Source: Gammaproteobacteria bacterium (lineage in GTDB: Bacteria > Pseudomonadota > Gammaproteobacteria > Thiohalomonadales > Thiohalomonadaceae). From it: DNA of 51,039 bases. This document shows positions 15,605 to 33,515 of the stretch, one piece after another. The notes below the pieces were generated by a model, which made no database searches, was not told where the DNA came from, and saw nothing but the letters and a program-made list of their open reading frames with translations. Location of the stretch: NCBI GenBank assembly GCA_026196575.1, contig JAPHSX010000007.1, forward strand, positions 1 through 51,039, written 5' to 3'. Both the position numbers and the translations under genes were made by a program. How positions within the stretch are numbered: the stretch's first letter is position 1; every line of letters starts with the position of its first letter.

Positions 15605-16510
15605 CTATTCGGACAAGACGGCGAGATCGAAATTGAGGGGCCGAAACAAGGACCCGGAGGCACGATTATAACTCAGCCCGACCACCAAATTTCTATCGCA
15701 GTGCTGGAAGGAGACAGCGATCAATCCGTCACCACTGAACGACTCATCCACCGTATGTTCGGCGATGATATGCGCCCCCATCTGGCGCAGCCGATGGAGG
15801 CATCTCTCGTGGGTCAACGGATCGCCGGAAATGGTATGGTGATGGGTAGAGACAATCACAAAACGCAGCCGCTCTTTCACATCCAATTCCGCCAGACTAT
15901 CGACAACATCCGTCTCAGCGCCCTGGGTATCCAGGTGCAGAATATCGAGAAAATCCAGACCATGGTCATCGAGCAGGTCCTTGACACTCCTCACGCCCAC
16001 CGCCTTGCTCTGTCCCGATGACTCAATCCGCAACACGATCTCCCCCGAGTCTTTGCCGGCGGCATAGGGCAGCAGCGCGGCCTCAACCCCGTTCCTCTCC
16101 AGGTTGATGGCGGCAATCTTCAGGTGCTCGGGATCGGGTTCACACATCACCAGGGTGGGATTGGCCACCTCCCGTGCAAACCACAAACTGTAGTACCCCC
16201 AGTAGCAGCCCAGCTCGATCATGGCACCTGCGGGGCGGACACGTTTGACAATCTCATAAAACACCCGCTCCTCCTGAGGCTCATGATGACCATCGAGCTG
16301 ACGAATAAGTTCGGCCATCCACTCGCCGTAGTAGCCGCCGTAGAGCACCTCGATGCCGTTGAACATCCGCTGCCACAACCGCCCGGCATCAGAAAAGACT
16401 CCTCCTGCCCCCGGCACCTTGGGCAGGTCGCCGCAATCACGGCATTTGCTTGTCATCAATATCCGCTCGGCGTCCGTCCGGGAGACTGGCGGCAGTGGGA
16501 TCTCCATCAT
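15605..16510 (-). CDS. FkbM-family methyltransferase
   Basis: A 301-residue soluble methyltransferase. The SAM-binding segment is MIELGCYWGYYSLWFA (~97-112), with MCEPDPEHL as the acidic second motif and ILHLDTQGAETDVV (~190-203) as the FkbM signature. The N-terminus has a CRDC motif (C23, C26), which may be a small metal site or a family trait. It overlaps wzt by 4 bp (upstream) and precedes the coiled-coil FkbM gene. O-methylation of the exported glycan is the likely role. Confidence 0.82.
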   Translation of the reverse strand: MMEIPLPPVSRTDAERILMTSKCRDCGDLPKVPGAGGVFSDAGRLWQRMFNGIEVLYGGYYGEWMAELIRQLDGHHEPQEERVFYEIVKRVRPAGAMIELGCYWGYYSLWFAREVANPTLVMCEPDPEHLKIAAINLERNGVEAALLPYAAGKDSGEIVLRIESSGQSKAVGVRSVKDLLDDHGLDFLDILHLDTQGAETDVVDSLAELDVKERLRFVIVSTHHHTISGDPLTHERCLHRLRQMGAHIIAEHTVDESFSGDGLIAVSFQHCDRNLVVGLSYNRASGSLFRPLNFDLAVLSE

Positions 16511-17730
16511 GCTTGTTCCTTGATTTCAATTTTCGGCGGCATCCAGCAAACACCCTCGAAGGGATTTTTGCCAAGATTCGTCACGGTAAACAGACACGCC
16601 CGATCCCACCAGTGATAATTACTCACCAGATGGCTTTCAGCACCCACCGCCGCAACAGCAATCGAGTAACTGCCCCGGCCAAGATTCATAGTAAAGGCAA
16701 TCTCATACACCAGCCGTGAACCGGCGCCAATATTCTCCAGCTGCTGTTGCGTCTGCCAGGTATTGGTACCGTACACCGACTGACCGAGACGGTCGCGAAT
16801 CATGTAACCCAGTATCAATTTCGGCACCGCACTTTTGACCTTCAGCTCGACAGCAACCGTGACATCCTCGCCAACATCCACATACTCCACAGGCTTACCC
16901 GCGGCATTCAACAGCTCGACCCTGACGATCTCTACTTCACCCGAGCCCGACTGTGTCTGTGCCTTGCCCTCGCTGTTGTCCATCCGGATCGAGGCATTTT
17001 CATTTTCAGCGATCAGCGCATTGTAGAAATCCATCACCTCCTCCGGGTCGCCATCCTTAATCAGCAGCCCCCGCTCGAGCAACAGCGCACGCTGACACAG
17101 ACCCTGAATCGCCGAACGGTCGTGCGACACAATCAGCAGAGTCGTACCCTCTTTCTGGAACTCACGGATACGAGCGAAGCTCTTGTGCTGGAAATAGGCA
17201 TCACCCACCGACAGGGCCTCATCCACAATCAGCAAATCGGGGCGAAATGCCGTCGCCACGCTAAAGGCCACCCTCATCTGCATGCCGCTGGAATAGGTGC
17301 GCATCGGCTGGTCGAAGTAATCGCCAATCTCCGCAAACGACTCAAGATCGGGCATAACCTGCTCTATCTCGTCCCTGGCATAACCCATCAGGCCGGCCGC
17401 GTGAGAGGCATTTTGCCGTCCGGTCAACTCGGGATTGAAACCCATGCCCAGCTCGAGAATGGCACTGACGCGACCGGACATTTGCACGCTGCCGGAAGTT
17501 GGCCGGGTAATGCCCGTGATCAGCTTCAGCAGCGTGCTCTTACCGGCGCCGTTCTGCCCGATCACGCCCACCGCCTCACCGGGGGAGACGGTAAAGCTCA
17601 CATTCTTCAGTACCCACTGCTCCGCGCGTGGCCGCAGCGGGACACCGAACCATGAACCGATGCGGCGCAACTCGCCGCCCCAGTTGCGATAAGACTTTCC
17701 GACGGCACTGACAATCAAGCTTCCGCTCAT
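16507..17730 (-). CDS. wzt: polysaccharide ABC exporter ATPase (Wzt) with carbohydrate-binding domain
   Basis: A 407-residue ATPase subunit that drives export of undecaprenyl-linked polysaccharide across the inner membrane. Walker A is GQNGAGKST (58-66), the signature is YSSGMQMR (~146-153), Walker B is LLIVDEALSVGD (~166-177) and the switch His is 203. Residues ~260-407 form an extra beta-rich domain, as in Wzt of E. coli O8/O9a, where it binds the capped chain end. Its expected partner, wzm, is not next to it but 13.4 kb away at 31147-31941, with the T2SS genes between. The start lies 45 bp after the gspH stop, so it is probably transcribed with that operon. Confidence 0.92.
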   Translation of the reverse strand: MSGSLIVSAVGKSYRNWGGELRRIGSWFGVPLRPRAEQWVLKNVSFTVSPGEAVGVIGQNGAGKSTLLKLITGITRPTSGSVQMSGRVSAILELGMGFNPELTGRQNASHAAGLMGYARDEIEQVMPDLESFAEIGDYFDQPMRTYSSGMQMRVAFSVATAFRPDLLIVDEALSVGDAYFQHKSFARIREFQKEGTTLLIVSHDRSAIQGLCQRALLLERGLLIKDGDPEEVMDFYNALIAENENASIRMDNSEGKAQTQSGSGEVEIVRVELLNAAGKPVEYVDVGEDVTVAVELKVKSAVPKLILGYMIRDRLGQSVYGTNTWQTQQQLENIGAGSRLVYEIAFTMNLGRGSYSIAVAAVGAESHLVSNYHWWDRACLFTVTNLGKNPFEGVCWMPPKIEIKEQA

Positions 17731-17775
17731 GCGCGCTCACCACCTGGTTGCACCACGCCCATTACAAAGTGGACG

Positions 17776-18177
17776 CTAGGGATTGACTGCATCCACAATC
17801 TCCGGCTTACAGCTAAAGGGCTGGATCTCATATACCGTTACATTCCTCTCCGGATCGGTTACGCGCAATCTCCCGGAGGTACATAACCCATTGACCTCGT
17901 AGCGCACCGGCGGCGCCAGCTCCACATCCCAGCCCTCGGGCAACGTAACCAGACCCGCAGCCGGAGGAAACACAATGGCCTCCCCCCCGAGGTAGGCCTG
18001 ATAGGGGAGCAAACCAATCTCGTGCAGCAACGCCGACAACGCCCCCTGGCGCTCGGCAGACTTGCGCAGATTCAACATAGATGGAGTCACCAGCCCGACC
18101 ACGATGGCCAGCAACAGGAGCACCACCAGGATCTCGACCAGCGTAAACCCCCGATAACCGCGCGCGGCGAGCATCAC
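17776..18177 (-). CDS. gspH: minor pseudopilin GspH-like
   Basis: A 133-residue protein with a type IV prepilin leader. Cleavage is expected after the Gly of RGFTLVEILVVLLLLAIVVG, placing Glu at mature position 5, followed by a ~20-residue hydrophobic helix. Two Cys in the C-terminal half (NGLCTSG and FSCKPE) may form a disulfide. It overlaps gspG by 4 bp. Position after gspG supports GspH of the pseudopilus, though minor pseudopilin names are set mostly by order. It is the last T2SS gene before wzt. Confidence 0.75.
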   Translation of the reverse strand: MMLAARGYRGFTLVEILVVLLLLAIVVGLVTPSMLNLRKSAERQGALSALLHEIGLLPYQAYLGGEAIVFPPAAGLVTLPEGWDVELAPPVRYEVNGLCTSGRLRVTDPERNVTVYEIQPFSCKPEIVDAVNP

Positions 18178-18605
18178 CTCTCCGGCGTATAGCCGATATC
18201 CGCCGCATTTCCCTCACCGCCGGGCTGGCCGTCCGCCCCCAGCGAATAGAGATAAAACGGCTGCGCCGCATTGTTCGACACGCTGTACTGATAGGGGTTT
18301 GACCAAGGGTCGAGCGGCACGCTCGGCTCATCGAGATACGGGCCCTTCCACCTTGCCGCCTGGGCCGAATCGGCTGGCGGCTTCACCAGCAGGCGCAGAC
18401 CCTCCTCGTTTGCCGGGAAGCGCCCAAAATCCAGCTGCAGGGTCAGCAGCGCCCCGCGCAGCATCTTCACCTGCACCTCAGCCGCCTTGATGCGCGAGCT
18501 GTCCGCCTGACCAAACAGGCGAGGACCAACCAGACCGGCCAACAGACCGATAATCACAAGAACCACAAGCATCTCGATAAGCGTAAAACCCTTCGCCAAT
18601 CTCAT
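18174..18605 (-). CDS. gspG: major pseudopilin GspG
   Basis: A 143-residue major pseudopilin. The leader ends MRLAKG, followed by FTLIEMLVVLVIIGLLAGLV with Glu5. The C-terminal part has the GspG hallmarks: the LDFGRFPANEEGL loop, DPWSNPYQY and a Gly/Asp-rich calcium-site-like end (YSLGADGQPGGEGNAADIG). I chose ATG 18605, with GAGGCG about 8 bases upstream, over a GTG six codons earlier. The conserved GspG C-terminus distinguishes it from type IV pilins. Confidence 0.92.
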   Translation of the reverse strand: MRLAKGFTLIEMLVVLVIIGLLAGLVGPRLFGQADSSRIKAAEVQVKMLRGALLTLQLDFGRFPANEEGLRLLVKPPADSAQAARWKGPYLDEPSVPLDPWSNPYQYSVSNNAAQPFYLYSLGADGQPGGEGNAADIGYTPER

Positions 18606-18629
18606 AACATTCGCCTCATTCACAACAGG

Positions 18630-19874
18630 TCATATAACAATTTCATTTACGCTGGTTATCGCCAGCATGATTGCGATCATCAACACACCAATGGTGGCGC
18701 CAATCAACAATATCGACAGCGGCTCCAGCAGCGTCAGGAAACGCTTCATCCTCTGGCGTGCCGCCGCATGATAACGCCCCGACAAGAGCAGCAACATCCG
18801 CGAAGAGGTACCCGAGCGCTCCCCCACGCGCAGCAGATTCGCTTCCATGGGATCGAGCAGATTCTGCAACTGCAGCGCATCGGCCAGTGACTTGCCACCG
18901 CGCACCATCGAGCGCACCTGCAACAAACGCTGGTGCAGAGTGTGAATACCCACCGCCTGGATGCTGAGCGACAGGGCATGGGCAAGCGAGACGCGACTAG
19001 CCAGCAAGGTGCCAAGCGACTGGGTCCAGCGCCCCATCTGGGTTTGCCGCAGCCAGTCGCCGAGCACTGGCAGGCGCAACAGAGACTGCTCGATCCGCGC
19101 CCGCCAGGCAGGCTGGCGGAAGGCGCTCAGCGCCAGCACCAGCAAGAGCGCAACACCCAGCAGCAGCCAATACCAATTGGCATTGACAAACAGGCCAAGC
19201 TCAAGCACCACACGGGACAACAACGGCACCTTGTCGCCCCCCTGCGAGAGCAGATTGGCAAACTTCGGCACCACGATGGCGAAGATCAGCCCCACCGCCA
19301 GGATCCCTGTCAGCACCAGCACCGATGGGTAGATCAGCGCATTGCGAAACTCTTGGCGCATCTCCTCCATATAGGTCAACTGCCTGAGGGCACGGTCAAA
19401 GGCCTCGGCCAGCTCGCCACTCTCCTCACCGGCGCGGATCAACTGCAGAATGTGCGCCGGCAGCCCAAGCCCCGACGCCTCGATGGCACCGGTGAAGCTG
19501 CCGCCCTGACGCAACGCGGAATAGAGCGCATCGAACACACCGCCCAACGGCGTTTGTGCATGGCCACGCAACAGCGACTGCAGAGCCTCGCCAATCGGAA
19601 TATCCGCCTGCAGCAGCGAGGTCAACTCCTGCATCGCCTGCAAGCGAAGCGCCGCCGTCATCCGGGTCTTGCGCGCCGAGGCCGCCGGCGCCGCCGGCGC
19701 CTCGACCAGCTTCAGCGGCAGCAACCCCTCGCGCTGCAAGCGGTAGAGGGCGTCCCGCTCACTGGCCGCCCTGAGCTGACCTTTGCGCGGCGCCCCCGCC
19801 TCATTGGTCGCCTCATAGTCAAAACAGAGCGAGGCGCCGTCCGGCGAGGCGGCAGAGGAACGGGGCATGTTCAA
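18630..19874 (-). CDS. gspF: T2SS inner-membrane platform protein GspF
   Basis: A 414-residue polytopic protein with two repeated GspF/PilC cytoplasmic domains (~75-190 and ~275-395) and three membrane helices (for example ALIYPSVLVLTGILAVGLIF and the C-terminal ILLIGATIGVLMIAIMLAI). The AGEESGEL and VGERSGT motifs occur once in each half, as expected. It forms the platform between the ATPase and the pseudopilus. It overlaps gspE by 4 bp and precedes gspG by 24 bp. Confidence 0.93.
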   Translation of the reverse strand: MNMPRSSAASPDGASLCFDYEATNEAGAPRKGQLRAASERDALYRLQREGLLPLKLVEAPAAPAASARKTRMTAALRLQAMQELTSLLQADIPIGEALQSLLRGHAQTPLGGVFDALYSALRQGGSFTGAIEASGLGLPAHILQLIRAGEESGELAEAFDRALRQLTYMEEMRQEFRNALIYPSVLVLTGILAVGLIFAIVVPKFANLLSQGGDKVPLLSRVVLELGLFVNANWYWLLLGVALLLVLALSAFRQPAWRARIEQSLLRLPVLGDWLRQTQMGRWTQSLGTLLASRVSLAHALSLSIQAVGIHTLHQRLLQVRSMVRGGKSLADALQLQNLLDPMEANLLRVGERSGTSSRMLLLLSGRYHAAARQRMKRFLTLLEPLSILLIGATIGVLMIAIMLAITSVNEIVI

Positions 19875-21583
19875 ACGACCGCCCCAAGGCCGTCAGCGGC
19901 CAACTCACCGGTCACCCGGAACACCTCCTCCAGCGTGGTTTCACCGCGCCATGCCAGACACAGGCCATCCTCCTGCAGCGAGCGGAACCCCTCACCCAGT
20001 TGCGCCAGGATCTGCTCAGTGCTCGCCTGCTCGGCGAGTAGATGACTCATCCGCTCAGTCACGCTAACCCACTCATAGATCCCCACACGCCCGCGATAAC
20101 CGGTGCCCAGACAGTGCTCACAACCCCGCGCACGGCGAAATCCCGGGCCGTCGGGCAACAGGTGCGGAAAACGCTCGCGCAACGAGGCGTAGATTGCACT
20201 CATCCCCTCGGGAACAGCCAAAGGTTCGGCACAGTGCACGCAGACGCGGCGCACCAGACGCTGTGCCAGCACCCCGCGCACCGCCGAGGCAAAGAGGAAA
20301 GGCTCCACCCCCATATCCAGCATGCGGCCAAAGGCGCCGATGGCATCATTGGTATGCAGGGTCGAGAGCACCGCATGGCCGGTCAGCGCCGCCTGCACAC
20401 CGATACGGGCGGTCTCCAGGTCGCGCATCTCGCCGATCATCAGCACATCCGGGTCCTGGCGCAAAATGGCGCGCAGCGCGCGCGAAAAATCATAGCCGAT
20501 ATCCGACTGCACCTGCACCTGAAACACCCCGTCGAGCTGGTACTCCACCGGATCCTCAACGGTAATGAGCTTGCGCTGACCGTTGTTCATCTCATCGAGC
20601 AAGGCATAGAGCGTAGTGCTCTTGCCCGAGCCGGTGGGGCCGGTGACCAGCACCATGCCGTGCGGCTGTTCGGTAACCTGGCGAAAGGCCGCATGAATAT
20701 CGGCGGAGAGTCCCAGGTGCGCCAGGTCGATATGCGCCTGATCCTTGGGCAGCAGGCGCATCACCACCGACTCGCCGAGCGGCCCCGGCAGGGTTGAGAC
20801 ACGCACATCCAGCGACTGCCCCGCACTTCGGATCGACAGCCGCCCATCCTGCGGCAGGCGGCGCTCGGCAATATCGAGATTGGCCATCAGTTTCACCCGC
20901 GAGACCACCGCATCGAGGCGTGAGCGCGGCGCGCGCAACCGGTCAATCAGCACCCCGTCGACGCGAAAGCGCACACGCAAGGCCGCCTGCTCTGGCTCCA
21001 GATGAATATCGGAGGCCCCGAGTTCGACCGCCTGGGTGAGAATATTATTGACCAGCGAGATGATCGGCGCCTCTTCGGCCAGCTCCCGCAGATGCTCGGC
21101 CTCCAGCTCACCGCCAGCCTCAACGGGGGGGTGCAACAGCGCCAGCGCACCGTCCAGGGTCTCGCTCAGCACCAGCGCCCAGGTGAACGACTCGGCACCG
21201 CGCTCGCGCAACAGCTCGGAAAAGGCACTGTGCAACGGCTTGCGGCTGGCAAGCCACAACACACCCGCCTCATCCAGCCAAGGGAGAGCCTCCCACTTCT
21301 CGAACCACTGCGGCGGCAGGTTTAGACGCGACAGCGCCGCCTGCACCGCATCACGGTCGGGCAGCGCATCGGTGAGAAGGAGGGGCACCCCCAGCTGCTC
21401 GGCCAGCACCGGCAGGATCACATCCTCGGAACAGACACCCAGCCGGGTAAGCACCGCCCCCAGGCGCCCCCCATAGCGCTGCTGAAAATCAAGGGCCCGT
21501 TGCAGCTCCTCCGCTCCGATCTTCCCGGCCTCAATGAGCATCAGCCCAAGAGGTTTAGACGTTCCCATAACACCACTTGCCAT
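19871..21583 (-). CDS. gspE: T2SS assembly ATPase GspE
   Basis: A ~570-residue secretion ATPase. An N-terminal GspE/MshE-type N domain (~10-150) binds the inner-membrane platform. Walker A is GPTGSGKST (~317-325), the Asp box is ITVEDPVEYQ, Walker B is DPDVLMIGEMRD (~379-390) and the His box is HAVLSTLHTND. A zinc motif pairs CVHC (~450-453) with CEHC (~490-493), typical of GspE rather than Tad ATPases. The frame opens with TTG at 21589; ATG 21583 or ATG 21568 are both plausible starts. It follows a 342-bp gap carrying REP elements, so it may have its own promoter, although none is convincing. Confidence 0.93.
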   Translation of the reverse strand: MASGVMGTSKPLGLMLIEAGKIGAEELQRALDFQQRYGGRLGAVLTRLGVCSEDVILPVLAEQLGVPLLLTDALPDRDAVQAALSRLNLPPQWFEKWEALPWLDEAGVLWLASRKPLHSAFSELLRERGAESFTWALVLSETLDGALALLHPPVEAGGELEAEHLRELAEEAPIISLVNNILTQAVELGASDIHLEPEQAALRVRFRVDGVLIDRLRAPRSRLDAVVSRVKLMANLDIAERRLPQDGRLSIRSAGQSLDVRVSTLPGPLGESVVMRLLPKDQAHIDLAHLGLSADIHAAFRQVTEQPHGMVLVTGPTGSGKSTTLYALLDEMNNGQRKLITVEDPVEYQLDGVFQVQVQSDIGYDFSRALRAILRQDPDVLMIGEMRDLETARIGVQAALTGHAVLSTLHTNDAIGAFGRMLDMGVEPFLFASAVRGVLAQRLVRRVCVHCAEPLAVPEGMSAIYASLRERFPHLLPDGPGFRRARGCEHCLGTGYRGRVGIYEWVSVTERMSHLLAEQASTEQILAQLGEGFRSLQEDGLCLAWRGETTLEEVFRVTGELAADGLGAVV

Positions 21584-21662
21584 AATCAATTCTAGGGTTA
21601 GCCAAGCGCCGTATTGTACTACGGCCGCAACGGCAGCACCATGCGGCAGAGCTGGTATCTAT

Positions 21663-21810
21663 TCACTCCCTGACATAGCTACCACCCCTCCACATCGGTG
21701 CAAAGATAAAAACCGCAGGAGCGCCTACGGCGCGATGGGCCGGCGGCTCCCTCGCCCTCCATCGCGGCAGAGCCACTCCTACGAAACCGCGATACCTGTG
21801 TGAGTTACCA
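21663..21810. repeat. REP/REPIN copy A with long conserved flanks
   Basis: The core at 21715-21782 is an imperfect palindrome: GCAGGAGCGCCTACGGCGCG ... ATCGCGGCAGAGCCACTCCTAC, the two arms being inverted REP-like units. The surrounding ~148 bp, starting CTCCCTGACATAGCTACCAC and ending near CGATACCTGTG, is shared with copy D at 34056-34205. Such GTAGGAGC palindromes are common extragenic elements in gammaproteobacteria. Confidence 0.8.
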
Positions 21811-21841
21811 GAGCTGAAAATTTGTCACAACGATAAAAACC

Positions 21842-21909
21842 GTAGGAGCGCCTACGGCGCGATGGGCTGGTGGCTCCCTCGCCCTCCATCGCGGCAGAAC
21901 CGCTCTACG
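21842..21909. repeat. REP/REPIN copy B
   Basis: GTAGGAGCGCCTACGGCGCG begins the left arm. The right arm (GCGGCAGAACCGCTCTACG) has lost bases, so the palindrome is decayed. It shares the left flank CAACGATAAAAACC with copy D. It ends about 23 bp from the acyltransferase stop codon. Confidence 0.75.
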
Positions 21910-21931: not shown

Positions 21932-22927
21932 TCAGGGCGGGCCTGGTGGTGTATTGCCGGCACGCTGGCGGATGCGGCGGCGGAGTGTTATCAGGCGACT
22001 TTCGACGAGGAGGTGGCCGAGAGAGGCCAGCAGCAGGGTCCCACCCAGCACAGCGGCGAAATGGGTGAGAGTGCCCGACTCCAGGGTGGTCAACGACTGC
22101 AGCAGCCAGATCACCAGAAAATGGCTGAGAAAGACGCCATAGGCCAGATAGCCGAGGCGGGTGTCCCAGCCGCGCGGGCGCAGGCGCGCGAGAGGGACAA
22201 TCAGCGCCAGCCCCAGCCACAGCCCCAGCAACACCTCGATGATGAAGCCCTCGCGCCACTGGCCGGTGGCATAACTGACGCCGGCGGCCAGCAGCGAGAG
22301 CAGGAGGATGGCGCCGAGCAGCCGCCAGCGCCGGGCACTGACCGCGATGCCGGCGATGAAGATGAAGAGGATCCCCGGCAGCAGGCGATAACCGTAATGA
22401 TCGGGGTTGAGCAGGCCGCCGAGCGCCAGGGTAAAGACCAGGGCGCTGAGCAGCACGGCGCCGGGCAGCAGCCAGCGCTGGCGAAAAAAGAGCAGCAGCG
22501 GCGCCAGCAGGTAGAACTGCAACTCCGCCCCCAGCGACCAGGCAGGCGGGATGAGGATAAAGGCGAGCTGCCCGGTAAACATGTAGAAGTTGAGCGGCAG
22601 CACCAGCAGGTTGGCCAACCAGTCACCGGGGCCGGGCGAGGCGGAGAGGTAGCTTACCTGAGGGTTGAGGAGGTAGAAAAAGGCGACAGTCAGGACGAGA
22701 AAAAAGAGGTATTGCGGAAAGATGCGCAGCAGCCGCTCAAGATAGAACCAGCCGGCGCCGTGCAGCGAGGGGGGGTAGTGGCGCGAGAGCTGGGCATGCA
22801 TCACAAAGCCCGCCAGCAGGTAGAAACCGACCACCGCTACCACGCCGGGATTGAGCTCGAAGGGCAGCCAGCCGGTGTGGGCCATGGCCACCAGGGCGGC
22901 CAGCAGCAGCCGGAGAGTGCCAAACAT
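21932..22927 (-). CDS. acyltransferase family 3 (OafA/YrhL type)
   Basis: A 331-residue inner-membrane protein with about nine to ten hydrophobic helices. Family motifs include YLERLLRIFPQYLFFL and PAWSLGAELQFYLLAPLLLF. It probably transfers acetyl groups to sugars of a surface polysaccharide or peptidoglycan. No periplasmic SGNH domain is attached. It lies between the secreted-protein gene and gspE and is not a T2SS component. REP elements sit on both sides (copies A/B downstream, C upstream), so it may be a later insertion in the operon. A terminator upstream separates it from the secreted-protein gene. The substrate is unknown; the neighbouring D-rhamnan is an obvious candidate. Confidence 0.85.
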   Translation of the reverse strand: MFGTLRLLLAALVAMAHTGWLPFELNPGVVAVVGFYLLAGFVMHAQLSRHYPPSLHGAGWFYLERLLRIFPQYLFFLVLTVAFFYLLNPQVSYLSASPGPGDWLANLLVLPLNFYMFTGQLAFILIPPAWSLGAELQFYLLAPLLLFFRQRWLLPGAVLLSALVFTLALGGLLNPDHYGYRLLPGILFIFIAGIAVSARRWRLLGAILLLSLLAAGVSYATGQWREGFIIEVLLGLWLGLALIVPLARLRPRGWDTRLGYLAYGVFLSHFLVIWLLQSLTTLESGTLTHFAAVLGGTLLLASLGHLLVESRLITLRRRIRQRAGNTPPGPP

Positions 22928-23079
22928 TGTCAGACCTGCGTCAGGAATAGGTGGCGCCCGATCATGCCGCGCTTGCGGGTGCCGTGCAAGGTTTTATCAA
23001 CCCTGCTTTATCACCCCTGCGCTCCTGCGTGGAGTGGGTGTGGAGAGCGTGGAAACGATGCGCCGCGTGGCGCCGTTGC

Positions 23080-23148
23080 GTAGGAGCGGCTTTGCCGCGA
23101 TGGAGGGTGGATGATGCCACCGCCCCATCGCGCCAGAGGCGCTCCTAC
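23080..23148. repeat. REP/REPIN copy C
   Basis: GTAGGAGCGGCTTTGCCGCG on the left and CGCGCCAGAGGCGCTCCTAC on the right form the same inverted pair as copies A, B and D. The central loop differs (GATGGAGGGTGGATGATGCC), being inverted relative to the others. It lacks their long flanks. Confidence 0.8.
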
Positions 23149-23308
23149 GGTCGCCCCCGTGCTCCCGCGTGGGAATGACAAGAAACGATAGATAAGAGGC
23201 GTAGCAACGACAAAAACCCTTTACGGGCTGTGGGTGTGGGTGCGCCAAGGGCGGGGTTGTGAGGGGACGGGTGTGCAGGGATGAGAAGAATTTCTCTTTG
23301 CACACACG

Positions 23309-23336
23309 AAAAAAAGGGCGCCCGGAGGCGCCCTTT
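23309..23336 (-). terminator. Rho-independent terminator of the secreted-protein gene
   Basis: On the minus strand AAAGGGCGCC-TCCG-GGCGCCCTTT is a perfect 10-bp stem with a 4-base loop, followed by a run of T (A run at 23309-23315). It lies 27 bp after the stop of the 23363-24802 gene. It should stop most transcription before the acyltransferase and gspE. Confidence 0.9.
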
Positions 23337-23362
23337 CTTCATGAACTCAACTAACAGCGATA

Positions 23363-24921: not shown

Positions 24922-24950
24922 ATGTTAAAGGGCGGGTATGCCCTTGTCAA
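24922..24950 (-). promoter_or_regulatory. strong sigma-70 promoter of the secreted-protein gene
   Basis: The minus strand reads TTGACA, 17 bases, TAACAT: a perfect -35 and a near-consensus -10 at ideal spacing. Predicted start near 24915, leaving a leader of ~113 bases. It lies in the 159-bp gap after the gspD stop, so this gene is expressed independently of the upstream T2SS genes. Confidence 0.8.
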
Positions 24951-26994: not shown

Positions 26995-27459
26995 TTATTC
27001 AGGTGACGGCGCTTGCGGCCGGGTGTAGGCGAAGAGGCGCTGCTCGCTCTGCTGCCCCTCGAAGGCGAAGCGAATCACGTCGCCCTCTATGGCGATCACC
27101 TCCCGCCCGTCGGGGAGCGTATCGCCCACGGTATAACGGGCCATGCTGCCAGCTTGCCCGGCAATAATCCACCGCTCGCCGGCCGGGTCGCGCTGAATGC
27201 CCAGCACCCGGCTCTGGCTTGTGTCTACCGGCGCCTGTGTGACGCCGCCAGGCGTTGCGGCCCAGCCAAGGCGCTTGTTGAGGCGGGTGACGCGGTTGGG
27301 GTCCGGTTTTGGTGTCTGCAGCGGTTCGAGCTGCCAGGGTGACTCGGCCCGCGGCTCGCCGGGCGGTTCCGCTTGCGGGCCGCCAACCTGGGAGTAGACC
27401 ACCAGGAACAGCAGCGCCAGCGCCACTACCGCCAACAGCTTGAGGCGCCGGGCAGTCAC
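26995..27459 (-). CDS. gspN: T2SS GspC/XpsN-like inner-membrane protein
   Basis: A 154-residue bitopic protein: short cytoplasmic N-terminus, one membrane helix (LKLLAVVALALLFLVVYSQV), a Pro-rich linker (~28-60), then a small beta domain (~85-150: SRVLGIQRDPAGERWIIAGQ and YTVGDTLPDGREVIAIEGDV) resembling the homology region of GspC. It should link the platform to the secretin periplasmic domains. Its place between the M and D genes matches xpsN of Xanthomonas, which fills the GspC role. The start is GTG, overlapping the gspM stop by 4 bp. No PDZ domain is present. Confidence 0.7.
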   Translation of the reverse strand: MTARRLKLLAVVALALLFLVVYSQVGGPQAEPPGEPRAESPWQLEPLQTPKPDPNRVTRLNKRLGWAATPGGVTQAPVDTSQSRVLGIQRDPAGERWIIAGQAGSMARYTVGDTLPDGREVIAIEGDVIRFAFEGQQSEQRLFAYTRPQAPSPE

Positions 27460-28019
27460 GGTACCACTCCGGGGGTTTGTGCATGCAGGTAGGCCTCGAT
27501 GACGAGGCGACCGCGACTTCCGCTGCGCTGGCGAAGCTCCAGTTCACGGATGTAGAGACGTGGCTGGTGGGTGTCGATCTCATTGAGCAGGCCGAGCATC
27601 TGCTGCGGGGCGAAGCGAAAATCAAGACGGCCGCGCACGCTGGTCAGCTGATGCCCCTCGACCGCGATGGGCTCGCCCATCTGCAGGCGAAAATCCTCAA
27701 GCTTGTAGCGCCGGGCCAGTGCGTTGATCGTGTCCTGCAGTTGCGCCACCGCTACACCCGGTGTTGGCGCCTGCCACAGGGAGGATTGCAGTTGCGAGAG
27801 GCGGCTGTTGGCCTGTTCGAACCGATTGGGCCAGGGCAGGGTGAGGTCCAGCGAGGAGAGCCGCGCCGCGGCGTCCTGCTCGGCCTGCAGTGCGGCGCGC
27901 GCCGCAGCCACCCTGTCACCCAAATCGAGCGCCAGGGCAAGCAGCAGGATCAGGCCGATGGCGCCCAGTGCCTCTTTCATCCAGGGATGCTGTTTCAATT
28001 CGCCGAGGGAGAGTGGCAT
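27456..28019 (-). CDS. gspM: T2SS GspM-like inner-membrane protein
   Basis: A 187-residue protein with one N-terminal membrane helix (ALGAIGLILLLALALDLGD, ~18-36), a coiled-coil-like stretch (~38-90) and a C-terminal ferredoxin-like domain (~110-187: LEDFRLQMGEPIAVEG, VRGRLDFRFAPQQMLGLL). This is the GspM plan. It would pair with GspL in the assembly platform. It starts four bases after the gspL stop and overlaps the next gene by 4 bp. Sequence similarity within this family is low, so the call rests on topology and order. Confidence 0.75.
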   Translation of the reverse strand: MPLSLGELKQHPWMKEALGAIGLILLLALALDLGDRVAAARAALQAEQDAAARLSSLDLTLPWPNRFEQANSRLSQLQSSLWQAPTPGVAVAQLQDTINALARRYKLEDFRLQMGEPIAVEGHQLTSVRGRLDFRFAPQQMLGLLNEIDTHQPRLYIRELELRQRSGSRGRLVIEAYLHAQTPGVVP

Positions 28020-28023
28020 GGCG

Positions 28024-29052
28024 CTATTTTACCAGTATGACGGTGAACTGGAAGCGCTTGGCGGAGGTCTCTTCCGCAATCGCGGTTTCCACCCGCGGCA
28101 ACAACATCAACTGCTGAATGATCGAGGCAGTGTTGAGCAGCGGCTTGCCCTCAAAGACAAGCTTCATCTCCTGCCCCTGCAGGCGCCACTCACTGAGCGT
28201 CATGTCGCGCGGGAAGTGTTCGAGGATCTCTTCAAACAGCGCCAGAAACGCCTGCGGTTTGAGCAGCTGCTGCAGCTGCCCCAGCTCCTGGGCTGCGTCC
28301 AGTGCGCGGTTGCGGCTGGCGAGATAGCCCTGGATCTCGCTGCGCTGCTGCTCGACCTGCGCGCGCAGCTGCTCGCCGGCCTGGTGGTAACGATAGAGAT
28401 CAATCACGCGGGTGGCGGCTATCAGCAACAAAAGAGCGGCGAGCCCGACCTGAATGGCCGGCAGGTGCTGGCGCAGCTCGGGGATGCGCCCCTGGCGCAA
28501 CAGGCTGGCGTGGGGTTTGTCGAGCAGGGGCAGCGACTGTGGCTCGGGCGGACCGGGCTGCTGCTGCTCCACCGGAACTGCGGCGTCACGCTGAAAGGCG
28601 CGCCACTGCTCGGCGCTGGGTGGCTCGGGCCAATAGTGGCTGGCACGCAGTTGCTGCCCGAACCAGTATTGTCCCTCTACCCCCTGTGGTGCAGCATTTT
28701 GTCCCGCCAGCGCGCGCACCAACCGAAGGCCGCTATCGAGGGGTTGCTGCATTAGCGTCTGGGGCAGGACAAGGTAGGATAAACGCCCGACCTGTGCCCC
28801 GCTGATCGCCGCCTGGTTCCAGAACCAGACCTGTGCGCCAGTTTCGCTCCAGACGGCCTGAAAGCCGGTGTGATCGTAGGGGCTGTAGGCCTGAACCTGA
28901 AGCTGCAGCGCGCCCTTGCGTTGGGCGGGGTCCAAATCGGCCGGCAGGGGGATGCGAAGGTAGTGATAGGTGCCCGCGCTGAGCAACCAGTGACGCTGCA
29001 CTATTCCCTTGTCAAGGCGGCGAGCGCCCTGTTGATCATAGATGAAACGCAT
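28024..29052 (-). CDS. gspL: T2SS GspL-like protein (PilN/XpsL type)
   Basis: A 342-residue protein: an N-terminal cytoplasmic part (~1-190), one membrane helix (VGLAALLLLIAATRVIDLY, ~203-221), a coiled coil (AGEQLRAQVEQQRSEIQGYL onward) and a C-terminal ferredoxin-like domain (FEEILEHFPRDMTLSEWRLQ). GspL recruits GspE to the membrane. The N-terminal domain seems shorter than the usual actin-like GspL domain. Its ATG lies inside the end of gspK (17-bp overlap). Confidence 0.75.
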   Translation of the reverse strand: MRFIYDQQGARRLDKGIVQRHWLLSAGTYHYLRIPLPADLDPAQRKGALQLQVQAYSPYDHTGFQAVWSETGAQVWFWNQAAISGAQVGRLSYLVLPQTLMQQPLDSGLRLVRALAGQNAAPQGVEGQYWFGQQLRASHYWPEPPSAEQWRAFQRDAAVPVEQQQPGPPEPQSLPLLDKPHASLLRQGRIPELRQHLPAIQVGLAALLLLIAATRVIDLYRYHQAGEQLRAQVEQQRSEIQGYLASRNRALDAAQELGQLQQLLKPQAFLALFEEILEHFPRDMTLSEWRLQGQEMKLVFEGKPLLNTASIIQQLMLLPRVETAIAEETSAKRFQFTVILVK

Positions 29053-30037
29053 TCAGAGGTAGTGCTTCAATAGGTGGTATGGCGGGCAAGGGCTTCGCTG
29101 TCTCAACAACACCCTCCCCGTTTTTCGTTGTCGTTGCTGCCATGCTCTCGATATACCAGGGTGAGTCGGTACTCATCGGCGTGAGCACCAGATTATACGC
29201 ATCAACGGGCAGGCCGCAAGCCTGACACCCGACCGTGAGACGGTATGAGCGGGAGGGGAAGGTAAATATGCGAAACTGCATTTGCGTTGCCGACATGCCG
29301 GTAAGCTGCCCTATTACACCCGGGGTGAGGGGAGTGTGCTCCCGGTAGCGGATCAGGCTTTGCGCGACACTGCTGTCGACACCGGGCAAACAGGCCAATA
29401 CCCGCGCCGATGCGGCGTTGGGGTTGATGCCGGCAACCGTTGAGGTGACGGTGACTTCGTGCGGCAGATCTGTCTGCGCCAGCTGCTGCCATCCGTAGAC
29501 ATATTGCAACTCCTGCAAGGTACGCAGCGGGCGGTTTGCCGGCGGCGGCAGGGAGGCTTCCTCATAGTCGGACTTTTCCGCCCCCTGCAGCCGACGAAAA
29601 TCATCTTCATCGATGTAGTCCAGCAGGGTGTCGATGAGACGGCCACGCTGTTCCAACGGAATGCCGTGCTGGGCCAACAGCCGCCCCAGGAGCTCCTGAT
29701 CAAGGTGGTGGAGGTTGATCAGGCCACGCTGATCCTGCAGCTGCAGCAGGGTGCTCTCCCCGTCGCGATAAACGGTGCCGTCAACGCGAACCACGGTAGT
29801 CGGATCAATGCCGATGCCATGCATACCTGACCTGACCACCGTGAGCCGATAGAGCATGGCATTGAGGGCGCTATGGCGCTCAATCATCGCCTGTGCCCTG
29901 GCCTGTTCCAGCGCCGCCAGCTCCCGCGCCTGATCGACCCTGACGGCAAAATACCCCGCCCCCAGAATCATCACGCTGAGAAAGACCAGTGTAATAATCA
30001 GGGCAAAGCCCTGTTGCCGTGGCGCGTTCAGCCTCAT
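29036..30037 (-). CDS. gspK: minor pseudopilin GspK-like
   Basis: A 333-residue large minor pseudopilin. The N-terminal leader and helix are QQGFALIITLVFLSVMILGA, lacking Glu5 as is usual for GspK tip proteins. The body has the GspK helical domain: QDQRGLINLHHLD, LIDTLLDYIDEDDFRRLQG and a helix-hairpin-helix-like INPNAASARVLACLPG region. The frame continues upstream, but ATG 30037 fits the leader and overlaps the gspJ stop by 4 bp (ATGA). With I and J it should form the pseudopilus tip complex. Confidence 0.8.
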   Translation of the reverse strand: MRLNAPRQQGFALIITLVFLSVMILGAGYFAVRVDQARELAALEQARAQAMIERHSALNAMLYRLTVVRSGMHGIGIDPTTVVRVDGTVYRDGESTLLQLQDQRGLINLHHLDQELLGRLLAQHGIPLEQRGRLIDTLLDYIDEDDFRRLQGAEKSDYEEASLPPPANRPLRTLQELQYVYGWQQLAQTDLPHEVTVTSTVAGINPNAASARVLACLPGVDSSVAQSLIRYREHTPLTPGVIGQLTGMSATQMQFRIFTFPSRSYRLTVGCQACGLPVDAYNLVLTPMSTDSPWYIESMAATTTKNGEGVVETAKPLPAIPPIEALPLNAFHL

Positions 30038-30675
30038 ATGTGAAACGCTTCGGAGCCGAAGGCAAACTGCGCGGGGAGATGCTGGGGCAGCGACGGTGAG
30101 GCAACGTGAAGAATACCGCCCTGTCCCAGCAACAGGATGGCGTGGGGCAATTGCGCCTCCAGCGAGTGTGGCGGCGGCCACTGGAGATGCCGCTCACCCT
30201 TGCTGTCGAGATAGGCGAAGCTGAGCGGCCCAGGCCAACGCTTTACTTCGGCGCCGTTATAGAGCAAGCGGCTCTCACTCGGTCCGCTATCGATAGTCCA
30301 CCTTATTTGCGCCGGAACGCCGGGGCGCTTGTCCAGGCTGAACGTGCTGAAGCCGCGAATTTCAGCGTCGTCACCCTGGAAGCGACTCGCTCCCTGCCCA
30401 CTTTCGATGAGCAGGCCACGCATACTGGTGCGCCACCAATAGGCGTGCATACCCTCGTACAAACGCTCGTTGAGCACGTTGTCGTAACGTTGCTGGAGGT
30501 GCCAGAAATAGGTCAGCCCCTGCATCAACAGGGTAAAGAGCAGGGAGACCAGTACCAGGACTAGCAGCATCTCCATCAGGGTAAAGCCGTGGCTGCGTCT
30601 CCTTGCGTGCGCGCTGCCGGTAGAAAAAGGCGGCGTGTCATCCATGGGGCGCGAATGGTGTTTGACTGCGCGCAT
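30034..30675 (-). CDS. gspJ: minor pseudopilin GspJ-like
   Basis: A prepilin-like protein of about 213 residues. The cleavage region is RRSHGFTLMEMLLVLVLVSL with Glu5, after an unusually long leader of ~30 residues. The rest is a beta-rich body with PAQIRWTIDSG. ATG 30675 follows the gspI stop by one base (TGATATG); ATG 30645 is an alternative giving a shorter leader. The name rests on order I-J-K and size, typical for GspJ. Confidence 0.75.
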   Translation of the reverse strand: MRAVKHHSRPMDDTPPFSTGSAHARRRSHGFTLMEMLLVLVLVSLLFTLLMQGLTYFWHLQQRYDNVLNERLYEGMHAYWWRTSMRGLLIESGQGASRFQGDDAEIRGFSTFSLDKRPGVPAQIRWTIDSGPSESRLLYNGAEVKRWPGPLSFAYLDSKGERHLQWPPPHSLEAQLPHAILLLGQGGILHVASPSLPQHLPAQFAFGSEAFHI

Positions 30676-30676
30676 A

Positions 30677-31150
30677 TCAGAAGGGTCTGACCGGGTCGCG
30701 GACCCTTTGGTGACCGACGGCGGTAAGCTGCATCTGGTGCAGCAGCTTGCCTTCATCGGAACTGATCTTGACATTCATGCGATAGAGCCCCATCCGGTAG
30801 AGGCCCAGCCCGGTCGAGCCGTTCACCATGTCCCGCACAGGTTCAATCAGCTCGCTGCGCCAGTTCACTTCGCGGGAATCGAGAAAAAAACTCCCTTGCG
30901 GCTGTTCCGCCGGATTAATATTTTGCAGCATTGCCAGCACATCAGGCACTGTCTGCGCGCGCTCCAGCACCGCATCAATTTTCGACAAGGAGAGCAGGTT
31001 GCTGTTGACCCAGCCGTAGAGGCTGATGCCGATAATGCTAACCAGCACCAGGGAGACGATGACCTCCAGCATGCTCATGCCCCTGGCACGACGCATCCTC
31101 ATGAATTGCGGACAAGACCGTATGGTGTGCGGGCGGAATTGAGCGCTCAC
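30677..31150 (-). CDS. gspI: minor pseudopilin GspI-like
   Basis: A prepilin-like protein of up to 157 residues. The leader RRARG is followed by MSMLEVIVSLVLVSIIGISL with Glu5, then a short body with NPAEQPQGSFFLDSREVNW. Met at mature position 1 is unusual but acceptable. The longest start is a GTG at 31150 overlapping the wzm stop (GTGA), with GGTGG upstream; ATG 31102 or 31096 would give a more typical short leader. If the GTG is used, this T2SS operon is translationally coupled to the polysaccharide exporter gene. Confidence 0.75.
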   Translation of the reverse strand: MSAQFRPHTIRSCPQFMRMRRARGMSMLEVIVSLVLVSIIGISLYGWVNSNLLSLSKIDAVLERAQTVPDVLAMLQNINPAEQPQGSFFLDSREVNWRSELIEPVRDMVNGSTGLGLYRMGLYRMNVKISSDEGKLLHQMQLTAVGHQRVRDPVRPF

Positions 31151-31941
31151 AACATGTCCACCATTTCCTCTTTGGCCTTATGGAACATGAATGTGGCCAG
31201 TGCCAACACAAACAGGCTTATCAGGGCGATCACACCCAGGGCGCCGACATCGGGAGTCCGGTTGAACAGCAGAATGTTCTGGTAGGCGCTTACCAGGTGG
31301 TACATGGGGTTTAACGCAAACCAGGAGGCGTATTGGCGGGGGATGATCTCCACCATGTAGACGATGGGGGTGAACCAGAAGAACAGTTGCAGCATGACGG
31401 GAACAACTTGCGCTACATCACGCACAAAAACATTTACCACACCCAGCAACAGCCCGACACCAAAGGCCAGCAACAGGGTAACGAACACCGTCACCGGCAA
31501 CCAAAACAACATTACGCCGGACGCATGACCAAGCAGCTGAAAGATCGCCATCATCGCGAGAAAAAGTAACAGATTGCTGACCAGACTCGTACCCGCCACA
31601 ACCAGCAGCAGTGTAACTTTCGGGAACTGCATTTTTTTCAGCAGGTTGCCATTATCGACAAATAATGTGGTACATCGCGACACCACCTCCGAGAACAGCG
31701 ACCAGAACAGCATCCCTGCCATCAGATAGATGGAGTAGGCGTATTTGTTATCAATTCCCGGCAGTTTGGCGGAGAGTACCGCGGAGAGAATAAAGGCAAA
31801 AATTGCGACCTGTGCCAGTGGGTGCAACACCATCCACATCGCACCGAGACGACTGCGTACAAAGCGTACTTTAAACTCATTGCTTATGGAGGAAATGACG
31901 AAATAGCGGTATCTCCAGGCCCCACTCAACAGCGCCATCAT
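31147..31941 (-). CDS. wzm: polysaccharide ABC exporter permease (Wzm)
   Basis: A 264-residue ABC-2-type permease with about six membrane helices. Family features include the N-terminal amphipathic WRYRYFVISSISNEFKVRFV, then SRLGAMWMVLHPLAQVAIFA, the LLKKMQFPKV loop and WFTPIVYMVEIIP. It forms the channel for Wzt-driven export of the O-polysaccharide. It overlaps manC by 4 bp (ATGA) and the first pseudopilin gene at its other end. Its partner wzt lies beyond the T2SS cluster, at 16507-17730. Confidence 0.92.
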   Translation of the reverse strand: MMALLSGAWRYRYFVISSISNEFKVRFVRSRLGAMWMVLHPLAQVAIFAFILSAVLSAKLPGIDNKYAYSIYLMAGMLFWSLFSEVVSRCTTLFVDNGNLLKKMQFPKVTLLLVVAGTSLVSNLLLFLAMMAIFQLLGHASGVMLFWLPVTVFVTLLLAFGVGLLLGVVNVFVRDVAQVVPVMLQLFFWFTPIVYMVEIIPRQYASWFALNPMYHLVSAYQNILLFNRTPDVGALGVIALISLFVLALATFMFHKAKEEMVDML

Positions 31942-33377
31942 AGGGTGGTTCTGCCGTAATTGTCGTCAAAACGGACAATATCGTCCTCACCAAGATATTC
32001 ACCACTCTGCACCTCGATGAGGATCAGACTGAGCAGACCCGGGTTCTCCAGACGATGCTTATGACCAGCCGGAATATAGGTGCTTTCATTGGTGTTGATA
32101 AAGATTTCGTTATCGCCATTTATGACCTTTGCCATACCGCGCACCACGATCCAGTGCTCGCTACGGTGATGGTGGATCTGCATCGACAGCGCGGCGCCAG
32201 GCTTGACCTCGATGCGTTTTATCTTGAAGCCGTTACCCTGCTCCAGCACGGTGTATGTTCCCCAGGGGCGATAGACGGTACGGTGCAATCTGTACGCCTC
32301 ATGGTCCATCGTTTTCAGCCTATGCACGACCTTCTTGACGTCCTGCACACAGCCGGGGCGAGTTACCAGCAGGGCATCATCCGTATCGACAATGATCAAA
32401 TCATCGATCCCCACGGCTGCCACCACCCGGCCTTCGGTCTGGATATAGGTATTTTTGGTATCGACCAGCACTGCATCGCCGATAATCCGGTTCTGCTGAT
32501 TGTCCGGCTCGACCAGGCGGCCGAGCGCATCCCAGGAGCCGATATCACTCCATTCAAACAACGCGGGCACAACCGCAACACGTTCTGACTTTTCCATCAC
32601 GGCATAATCAATGGAGATATCTGGCATAGCCTCGAACAACGCGGTGGAGAACTCACACATCACCGAGTTTTCCACCGTGGCACTCTTCCTGCCGGCAAAA
32701 CAGGCGAAAACCGCTTTCATGACCTCCGGGGCGTGTTGTTCCAGCTCTTCCAGAATAGTGCCTGCAGTAAAGCAAAACATCCCCGAATTCCACAGATAAT
32801 TACCAGCTTCGAGGTAGCTCCTGGCGGTATCAAGATCAGGCTTTTCGACAAAGCGTTTAACGGCATGTCCCTGAGAATCGCCCAGGGCTTCACCACTTTC
32901 AATGTAACCAAACCCGGTTTCTGGCGCGTTGGGCCGGATACCGAAGGTGACCAACATGCCAGTTTGTGCCAGCTGCTTCGCCACAGTGACCGACTCGACG
33001 AAATGGCAGGTGTCGTTAATCAAGTGATCGGCGGCCATCACCAGCATGAGCGCGTTATCACCATACTTTTCACGCACATGCAATGCTGCCAGGGCGATCG
33101 CAGGAGCGGTGTTTCTCCCCATAGGTTCGAGCAGATAGACACCATGCGCGCCACTAACCTTGGCCCTGATATATTCATCCTTGCTCATGAAGTAGTAATC
33201 ACGATTGGTAACGGTAATTACCTCTCCCTTACTGACGACCTCGGCGGCGCGCCGGTATGTTTTTTCCAGCAAGGACTGACCATCAGGCAACTTCATGAAC
33301 GGCTTTGGGTGGCCCTCACGAGAGACCGGCCAAAGGCGCGTTCCTGCACCGCCCGACAGTATGATTGGAATCAACAT
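31938..33377 (-). CDS. manC: mannose-1-phosphate guanylyltransferase / mannose-6-phosphate isomerase
   Basis: A 479-residue bifunctional enzyme making GDP-mannose. The nucleotidyltransferase domain starts IPIILSGGAGTRLWPVSREG with the catalytic Lys in HPKPF. FVEKPDLDTA and SIDYAVMEKSERV are typical ManC/AlgA segments. The C-terminal cupin isomerase domain (~350-470) has RPWGTYTVLEQGNGFKIKRI and the metal-binding HHHRSEHW. ATG 33377 is preceded by AAAAGGAA; the frame opens 42 bases earlier, which I reject. It feeds gmd and rmd, about 23 kb downstream in the same direction. Confidence 0.93.
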   Translation of the reverse strand: MLIPIILSGGAGTRLWPVSREGHPKPFMKLPDGQSLLEKTYRRAAEVVSKGEVITVTNRDYYFMSKDEYIRAKVSGAHGVYLLEPMGRNTAPAIALAALHVREKYGDNALMLVMAADHLINDTCHFVESVTVAKQLAQTGMLVTFGIRPNAPETGFGYIESGEALGDSQGHAVKRFVEKPDLDTARSYLEAGNYLWNSGMFCFTAGTILEELEQHAPEVMKAVFACFAGRKSATVENSVMCEFSTALFEAMPDISIDYAVMEKSERVAVVPALFEWSDIGSWDALGRLVEPDNQQNRIIGDAVLVDTKNTYIQTEGRVVAAVGIDDLIIVDTDDALLVTRPGCVQDVKKVVHRLKTMDHEAYRLHRTVYRPWGTYTVLEQGNGFKIKRIEVKPGAALSMQIHHHRSEHWIVVRGMAKVINGDNEIFINTNESTYIPAGHKHRLENPGLLSLILIEVQSGEYLGEDDIVRFDDNYGRTTL

Positions 33378-33515
33378 ATTTTTCCTTTTTGGCTCTATGC
33401 CGGGAAAACCTCCCGACAATCCACATATCTTATATGGCCTGCTCGGCCACTCTCATGCAGCGACAACCGCACCGGAAACCGGGGTGTAATGGCATCCCCC
33501 CTTTCCTGTAACGAG

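Follow-up and report, generated by a model that had tools for sequence, protein, structure and literature searches.

The window analyzed here (the whole stretch of 51,039 bp, which is the entire contig JAPHSX010000007.1 of GCA_026196575.1, a draft Thiohalomonadaceae genome of 2.74 Mb in 74 contigs) contains a set of type II secretion system (T2SS) genes that lies within a polysaccharide gene cluster, between the genes for the membrane subunit (wzm) and the ATPase subunit (wzt) of an ABC-2 O-polysaccharide exporter. The genes are transcribed from the minus strand in the order MarR-type exopolysaccharide (EPS) regulator, manC, wzm, gspI-J-K-L-M-C-D, slp, atf, gspE-F-G-H and wzt, followed on the same strand by two FkbM methyltransferase genes, a three-domain family 4 glycosyltransferase (GT4) gene, gmd, a second reductase gene of the short-chain dehydrogenase/reductase (SDR) type (rmd-like) and more sugar genes. 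The wzm stop and the wzt start are 13,416 bp apart on one strand, which confirms the 13.4 kb of T2SS genes plus a secreted protein and an acyltransferase, all in the same direction, that had been noticed in the initial annotation; the interval encodes GspI, J, K, L, M, C and D, a 479-amino-acid (aa) secreted protein (slp), an Acyl_transf_3 protein (atf) and GspE, F, G and H. The features are as follows (percentages are identities; Milos-ODIII6 is the related locus L046, and G008 and G071 are genomes with related exporters).

33516–33854, minus strand: EPS-associated MarR-type regulator, operon head (TIGR04176, 131.5 bits, cutoff 88; 48% to the G008 homologue)
31938–33377, minus strand: manC, mannose-1-phosphate guanylyltransferase/mannose-6-phosphate isomerase (TIGR01479, 588 bits, cutoff 373; 63% to G008 manC; a TTG start extends the frame to 33419)
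31147–31941, minus strand: wzm, exporter membrane subunit (PF01061, 71 bits; 55% to G071 Wzm)
30677–31102, minus strand: gspI, minor pseudopilin (PF07963; 36% to Milos-ODIII6; the leader favours this ATG over an alternative GTG start at 31150)
30034–30636, minus strand: gspJ, minor pseudopilin (PF07963; 42% to Milos-ODIII6)
29036–30037, minus strand: gspK, minor pseudopilin (PF21687, 53.6 bits; NF037980, 80 bits, below cutoff 130; 50% to Milos-ODIII6)
28024–29052, minus strand: gspL, named by position and 41% identity to Milos-ODIII6 (no meaningful Pfam or NCBIfam match)
27456–28019, minus strand: gspM, XpsM subtype (NF040576, 51.1 bits, cutoff 60; PF10741, 20.3 bits, cutoff 21.7)
26995–27459, minus strand: gspC-like, named by position and 35% identity to the Milos-ODIII6 homologue (no meaningful family match)
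24962–26965, minus strand: gspD, secretin of the S-layer-type clade by tree (PF00263, 158.8 bits; TIGR02517, 350.2 bits, just under cutoff 351.35)
24922–24950, minus strand: sigma70-like promoter site 5' of slp, TTGACA-17-TAACAT (pattern scan, 10 of 12 matches)
23363–24802, minus strand: slp, predicted surface layer (S-layer) protein, 479 aa (Sec signal peptide by eye; 36% to the Milos-ODIII6 S-layer-like protein)
23366–23743, minus strand: slp C-terminal domain, predicted ASRT/ASRAH fold (AlphaFold2 model), candidate O-polysaccharide-binding anchor
23309–23336, minus strand: intrinsic-terminator hairpin and T run just 3' of slp (RNA fold of 23300–23362)
21932–22927, minus strand: atf, acyltransferase, Acyl_transf_3 (PF01757, 74 bits; palindromes on either side; missing from the Milos-ODIII6 cluster)
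19871–21589, minus strand: gspE, ATPase with an MshE-type N-terminal domain that binds cyclic di-GMP (PF00437, 437 bits; NF053729, 56.4 bits, cutoff 38; TIGR02533, 547 bits, below cutoff 630)
18630–19874, minus strand: gspF (PF00482, 141.6 bits; TIGR02120, 256 bits, below cutoff 424)
18174–18623, minus strand: gspG, major pseudopilin (PF08334; TIGR01710, 167.7 bits, cutoff 88.85)
17776–18177, minus strand: gspH, minor pseudopilin (PF07963; 38% to Milos-ODIII6)
16507–17730, minus strand: wzt, exporter ATPase with a carbohydrate-recognising C-terminal domain (PF00005; PF14524 (Wzt_C), 134 bits)
7587–16510, minus strand: remaining polysaccharide operon, with two FkbM-type methyltransferases, three-domain GT4, GDP-mannose 4,6-dehydratase (gmd) and rmd-like SDR reductase, the last by position (family matches; the large glycosyltransferase, gmd and rmd-like genes are matched in G008)

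The T2SS had been called complete, and members from GspC to GspM are indeed present, GspC and GspL being weak members, named by position and similarity to Milos-ODIII6 only. Pfam cutoffs are reached by GspD, E, F, G and K; with NCBIfam profiles GspG scores over its cutoff and GspD, GspE, GspF, GspK and GspM score below theirs, as for a divergent subtype. The same genome encodes a second T2SS of a different clade (G000:C68), and its prepilin peptidases are encoded on other contigs. The related loci used for comparison, S-layer-type (S-type) below, were selected by GspD similarity to the window and not at random, with flanks of ~10 kb from gspD; the 26 S-type stretches exclude G087 and G217, which duplicate the contigs of L053 and L054, and G051 is represented by L061. 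One strong branch parts the S-type rows (26 GspD and 14 GspE, window included) from the ordinary T2SS rows (20 GspD and 18 GspE, among them the window genome's own C68 system) in a quick GspD tree and a careful GspE tree; because of the way the set was picked the GspD separation is partly by design, and GspE agrees with it. The window GspD is 52% identical to that of Milos-ODIII6 and 30–41% identical to the other S-type secretins, and the window and Milos-ODIII6 are sisters on the trees (GspE support 99/98). The MshE-type N-terminal motif was recognized by eye in 12 of the 14 S-type GspE proteins (not in G364 or G273) and in 0 of the 18 ordinary ones, and such a domain in the ATPase of an S-layer T2SS hints that cyclic di-GMP may control S-layer secretion.

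Wzm and Wzt were taken at the outset to be subunits of one transporter that are normally encoded together, and this was borne out. A survey of 95 genomes, the window's included, gave a Wzt match (threshold E ≤ 1e-60) in 12, and in 11 of the 11 other than the window's a Wzm match lies within ~160 bp of Wzt. Since Wzm stands beside Wzt in all of these, and since no second Wzt_C domain was found in the window genome, the window wzm and wzt are one ABC-2 transporter split in two. In the four closest exporters by Wzm (G071, see above; G026, 40%; G008, 39%; G023, 36%) wzm and wzt overlap by 1–4 bp, and no gsp gene is present in the 12–20 kb around them. One of these genomes, G008, belongs to the same family as the window genome and has a matching operon in outline that lacks the T2SS: besides manC and wzm it shares the regulator (which lies ~3.9 kb upstream of manC in G008), wzt (45%), the large glycosyltransferase (50% over 402 residues), gmd (81%), the rmd-like gene (63%) and further glycosyltransferases (26% and 81%). 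As the same-family operon matches without a T2SS and the closest exporters keep wzm and wzt overlapping, these comparisons indicate that the T2SS module was inserted into the polysaccharide operon. The combination of manC, gmd and a reductase suggests that the polysaccharide contains a GDP-mannose-derived sugar such as D-rhamnose, in which it would presumably resemble the P. aeruginosa A-band (common) antigen.

Linkage between S-type T2SS genes and exporters of this kind recurs. A Wzm profile matched 9 of the 26 S-type stretches, as against none of the 20 from ordinary T2SS loci; counted by lineage, with four Pseudomonas loci as one, wzm is present at 6 of the 12 S-type lineages that have at least seven gsp genes (Fisher p 0.001), or 5 of 11 when the window is omitted (p 0.003). 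The arrangements vary. Milos-ODIII6 has the same permuted T2SS order as the window (gspI to gspD, slp, gspE to gspH; GspE is 64% identical) but lacks the acyltransferase gene, and its wzm and wzt are adjacent after gspH and of another exporter lineage (Wzm 22%). P. jinjuensis, P. schmalbachii, P. delhiensis and P. citronellolis (L062–L065) have wzm, gspE...D, an S-layer-like gene, two genes (sugar genes by eye in L062) and wzt, with the T2SS genes in the E-to-D order of Aeromonas and with exporter and T2SS distantly related to those of the window. In Thermomonas wzt and slp are on one strand and wzm and gspE...D on the other, in Lysobacteraceae NML07-0707 wzm-gspE-gspF-slp-glycosyltransferase...-wzt is on one strand and gspG...D on the other, and in NORP299 wzt-wzm is divergent from gspE...D. 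At L053, which is outside the Wzm-profile counts, wzm-wzt lies ~10 kb upstream of gspE, and another contig of the L055 genome (L166) has wzm-wzt next to a T2SS other than that of L055. Conservation of the wzm-gspI and gspH-wzt junctions had been proposed as a check, and no other locus examined has either junction in exactly this form. The window Wzm is only 22–23% identical to those of L046, L051 and L062, and because the exporters differ in this way the association appears to have been rebuilt rather than inherited once. The well-supported branches force at least two switches between separated and adjacent genes on the Wzm tree and at least three on the Wzt tree (both quick trees with long branches for L046 and G087), and by these trees the wzm/wzt split arose more than once.

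The cargo gene of the window, slp, encodes a mature protein of 44.5 kDa with a predicted pI of 4.05, and the whole protein contains 4 lysines and 4 arginines. It has the profile of a surface-array protein in that its gene adjoins the T2SS genes, a signal peptide is visible by eye, the protein is predicted to be rich in beta strands, and it is within the ~45–60 kDa range. Its codon adaptation index (CAI) of 0.759 is the highest of the 37 window genes scored (ribosomal-protein mean 0.736), a codon bias that suits, without proving it, a surface protein made in abundance from a separate transcript. Of the 12 S-type lineages that have seven or more gsp genes, 8 carry an S-layer-like cargo gene; in addition L050 has one truncated by the end of its contig and G009 has one that is broken, whereas L055 and L057 yielded none. 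The G009 gene, which follows gspD in a complete genome of the same family, is apparently in pieces (L033 18535–18867 and L034 500–2005), and a transposase-like open reading frame (ORF; 549 aa, by eye) comes after it. One sibling cargo, that of L049, passes the Pfam cutoff for the S-layer protein Slr4 (26.9 versus 25 bits), and the window cargo has no gathering-score match to that profile (PF19526); a Slr4 search of 369 genomes of the class gave no match, and as the control genomes were likewise silent it is uninformative. A sequence search of the PDB with the window cargo returned nothing meaningful, and the integrin- and complement-type Foldseek matches of the whole protein were discarded because the model is of low confidence (below).

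The last ~125 residues of slp are modelled well by AlphaFold2 (predicted local distance difference test (pLDDT) 85.6, predicted template modelling score 0.79). VIA-align of this model found the Anabaena sensory rhodopsin transducer ASRT (2IIA; Z 10.0, root-mean-square deviation 2.9, 89 residues aligned) and Thermotoga TM1070 (1NC7; Z 9.7, deviation 3.0, 103 aligned), with carbohydrate-binding modules as the next family (Z 6.1), and Foldseek also ranks 2IIA and 1NC7 first, with a modest E of 2.6e-3. The domain is thus predicted to have the ASRT/ASRAH beta-sandwich fold (Z ~10), but its identity to ASRT-fold structures in the structural alignments is 9–17% and it has no Pfam match. The ASRAH superfamily is predicted to be sugar-binding (PMC2739507); the term "s-layer" is absent from that paper, which among the literature matches listed is the only one that concerns the domain. 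When a profile built from the domain at nine loci was run against 2,974 ORFs it matched 13 proteins: the nine themselves and four from outside the building set (from Thermomonas, 3.7e-20; another protein of L059, 1.1e-13; from Lysobacteraceae, 2.1e-10; from G009, 1.1e-8). All 13 are S-layer-like secreted proteins or, in G009, a piece of one; it matched nothing in the 20 ordinary T2SS stretches. Across 369 genomes of the class the domain is present in 5 and an S-type GspD in 8, with both in 4 (p = 4.6e-7); without the window genome these numbers are 4, 7 and 3 (p = 1.7e-5).

A very similar layout is known in Aeromonas. In A. salmonicida A450 the S-layer T2SS (sps) genes and vapA, the gene required for the A-layer, lie between wzm and wzt (PMC4483657), so that as in the window a T2SS set and an S-layer gene separate the two halves of an ABC-2 exporter within a polysaccharide cluster. 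The order differs: it is E-F-G-H-I-J-K-L-...-vapA in the available description of the Aeromonas locus and I-J-K-L-M-C-D-slp-atf-E-F-G-H in the window, a circular permutation, and the likeness is one of gene layout. The O-antigen cluster of A. hydrophila AH-1 (O11) is likewise interrupted at wzm by an S-layer T2SS cluster (spsE to spsD, then vapA), but it is described as having a truncated wzm upstream and a complete wzm-wzt downstream (PMC4413209), whereas the window has a single wzm and a single wzt that flank the module. At the Slr4 and NpdA loci the S-layer gene adjoins a gsp cluster, as in the window, and the available portions of those reports mention no wzm/wzt linkage (PMC7821379, PMC10765051). 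In the open-access literature, judged partly from titles and the starts of abstracts, the wzm-T2SS-S-layer-wzt layout was found only for Aeromonas. The layout itself therefore has a precedent; the window differs in its permuted T2SS order (shared with Milos-ODIII6), its acyltransferase gene, the identifiable operon into which the module was inserted, and the cargo's C-terminal domain, whose candidacy as an O-antigen anchor is what is new.

Taking together the gene content, the split transporter, the same-family operon that lacks the insert, the separate T2SS clade and the recurrent linkage observed above, we think it probable that the insert is a module dedicated to S-layer secretion (a second whole T2SS with its cargo gene) residing in the O-polysaccharide operon that makes the likely anchor of the layer. 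The cargo would be carried over the inner membrane by Sec and then over the outer membrane by the window T2SS, Wzm/Wzt would export a mannose-derived polysaccharide that ends up on lipopolysaccharide (LPS), and the ASRAH-like C-terminal domain of the cargo would bind the LPS polysaccharide and so hold the array on the cell. We infer from the comparisons above that the cargo forms an S-layer, that the window T2SS secretes it and that its domain binds O-polysaccharide. Genes for coat, exporter and anchor would travel together because they are useful only together. In the available part of a 2021 review the S-layers of Caulobacter and Campylobacter fetus are anchored to LPS O-antigen through N-terminal segments (PMC8559796), and for the Aeromonas S-layer O-antigen anchoring is stated or suspected (PMC4413209, PMC3658858).

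Several observations weigh against this reading. Regarding the cargo, rmlB, glnS, acnB and gspD have CAI values close behind that of slp (0.754–0.739), neither Pfam nor NCBIfam has a family that matches the protein, a search of 55 other relatives gave no homologue, the full-length model is poor (pLDDT 53; its beta strands are of low confidence except in the C-terminal domain), and the Milos-ODIII6 cargo is the only full-length homologue found, blastp against the other cargos being insignificant (best E 0.15). Regarding the domain, the full profile misses the sibling cargos of L053, L054 and G364, and when the profile is built with neither the window nor L046, it recovers L046 (E 0.0011) but fails to recover the window cargo (threshold E ≤ 0.05), so that apart from its fold the window's link runs through L046 alone. 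The domain is also present in G006, a genome without an S-type GspD match at 1e-60, and it matches 11 times in G051; it is therefore not exclusive to these T2SS loci. Regarding linkage, 17 of the 26 S-type stretches have no wzm, and eight loci of another T2SS type (G002, G005, G018, G034, G047, G032, G052 and G024) have wzm-wzt in one only; the exporter genes in the genomes of L058 (L158) and L049 (G386:C161) are on a contig other than that of the T2SS and so give no evidence of linkage there.

The most serious competitor is that the T2SS cargo is a soluble or matrix-type secreted protein, such as an adhesin or biofilm matrix component, and that the operon link reflects a shared extracellular matrix. 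The window cargo matches no S-layer family in Pfam or NCBIfam, the middle of its low-confidence model resembles pilin and adhesin beta-domains (Z 7–8.7, a level that the tool calls common), and Slr4 is itself also reported as a matrix component. Nonetheless we regard a matrix protein as unlikely, since there is a single cargo gene within a dedicated T2SS cluster, its size, acidity and codon bias fit an S-layer protein, its C-terminal domain is common to S-layer-like cargos of sibling loci, and the nearest published architecture, that of A. salmonicida, encodes an S-layer (PMC4483657).

Alternatively, the T2SS genes could have entered by chance recombination without benefit, in which case the neighbourhood would be functionally meaningless. 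Adjacent wzm-wzt with no nearby gsp genes in all close relatives had been named at the outset as the mark of a recent accident, and the four closest exporters do fit that description and the exact junctions are unmatched elsewhere (above). Other lineages, however, also have wzm and wzt separated or adjoined by T2SS or S-layer-like genes (four Pseudomonas, two Lysobacteraceae, Milos-ODIII6, NORP299 and, as published, Aeromonas), wzm is absent from the ordinary T2SS stretches, and the differing exporters imply that the association was rebuilt; a meaningless insertion thus seems quite improbable, and a functional link, as first proposed, stands on the recurrence and the Aeromonas precedent. An assembly or binning artefact that joined two loci is a very remote prospect: this is a 74-contig draft and the GC content of the T2SS genes (0.58–0.69) is unlike that of wzm (0.52), but four other stretches of the genome range from 0.54 to 0.65, both junctions are at least 17 kb from the contig ends, and Milos-ODIII6, a separate genome, shares the unusual I-to-D, slp, E-to-H order. 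Given this spread within the genome, GC content does not point clearly to a foreign origin of the module either. The stronger proposal that exporter and T2SS have merged, either into one envelope complex or with Wzt driving protein secretion, has gene order alone in its favour and we reject it as barely conceivable, since the module has its own GspE ATPase, sibling loci use distantly related exporters, and A. salmonicida keeps an intact O-antigen without vapA but has none without wzt (PMC4483657). Two separate machines, one for the coat subunit and one for its likely anchor, are the better reading.

If S-layer secretion modules repeatedly settle in O-antigen operons with ABC exporters, the odd gene order of the window becomes part of a pattern of which Aeromonas is one of several instances, and the arrangement could serve as an annotation signature for unrecognised S-layers in uncultured Gammaproteobacteria. 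We put forward only tentatively, as a possibility that we hold at somewhat less than even, the broader idea that T2SS-exported S-layer-like proteins of many Gammaproteobacteria share an ASRAH-type, lectin-like C-terminal O-polysaccharide anchor, and that coat, exporter and anchor form a self-contained module put together repeatedly, around wzm/wzt pairs that are unrelated to one another. If true, Gram-negative S-layers would have a widespread anchoring domain, a kind of domain that they lack according to the available text of the 2021 review (PMC8559796), and a candidate O-antigen anchor domain makes the question of how these layers attach directly testable.

The initial annotation had described tight junctions and a T2SS operon. 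The 45 bp gap between gspH and wzt is as described, but the overlap of the gspI GTG start with the wzm stop is doubtful, since the short prepilin leader (MRMRRARG / MSMLE) fits the ATG at 31102, which is 44 bp past wzm. The likely transcription signals near slp and atf do not support an uninterrupted operon. The hairpin 3' of the slp stop is a strong terminator by RNA folding (ΔG −28 kcal/mol, z −4.86, with a T run), although the pattern scan did not list it, and gaps of 435 and 342 bp containing palindromes flank atf. The promoter-like site 5' of slp is weak, and the 18.3-kb scan shows no excess of sigma70-like sites (5 found versus 6.2 expected from shuffles). From the slp promoter-like site, its terminator and the palindromic gaps around atf, several transcription units are likely at this locus.

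The palindromes resemble repetitive extragenic palindromic (REP) elements (CGTAGGAGCG...CGCGATGG) and are found at window positions 21701–21905 and 23071–23151, either side of atf, and at 34108–34178, between the regulator and acnB. Those between atf and gspE look like REP elements; a terminator role for the two there was rejected because they fold no better than shuffled sequences (z −0.1 and −1.2). A search with a REP consensus gave no match, and an Rfam search of the window found nothing beyond tRNAs.

Some additional observations concern related loci and the rest of the window. The same-family genome G002 (G002:C106:58000–78000, L190) has a T2SS of the other type (E-to-D order) ~7 kb upstream of an adjacent wzm-wzt, counted from gspD, and the domain profile matched none of the eight loci of that type. 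The 11 domain matches in G051 (the Thiotrichaceae genome of L061) are spread over contigs L172, L176, L178 and L180–L187, with some neighbouring copies in one frame. Within the polysaccharide cluster of the window, positions 5377–7377 encode a fusion of tetratricopeptide repeats and a sulfotransferase with a low GC content (0.40). Tad/Flp-type pilus genes, recognized by eye, lie beside glnS and gltX at 44857–50263 and are unrelated to the T2SS module.

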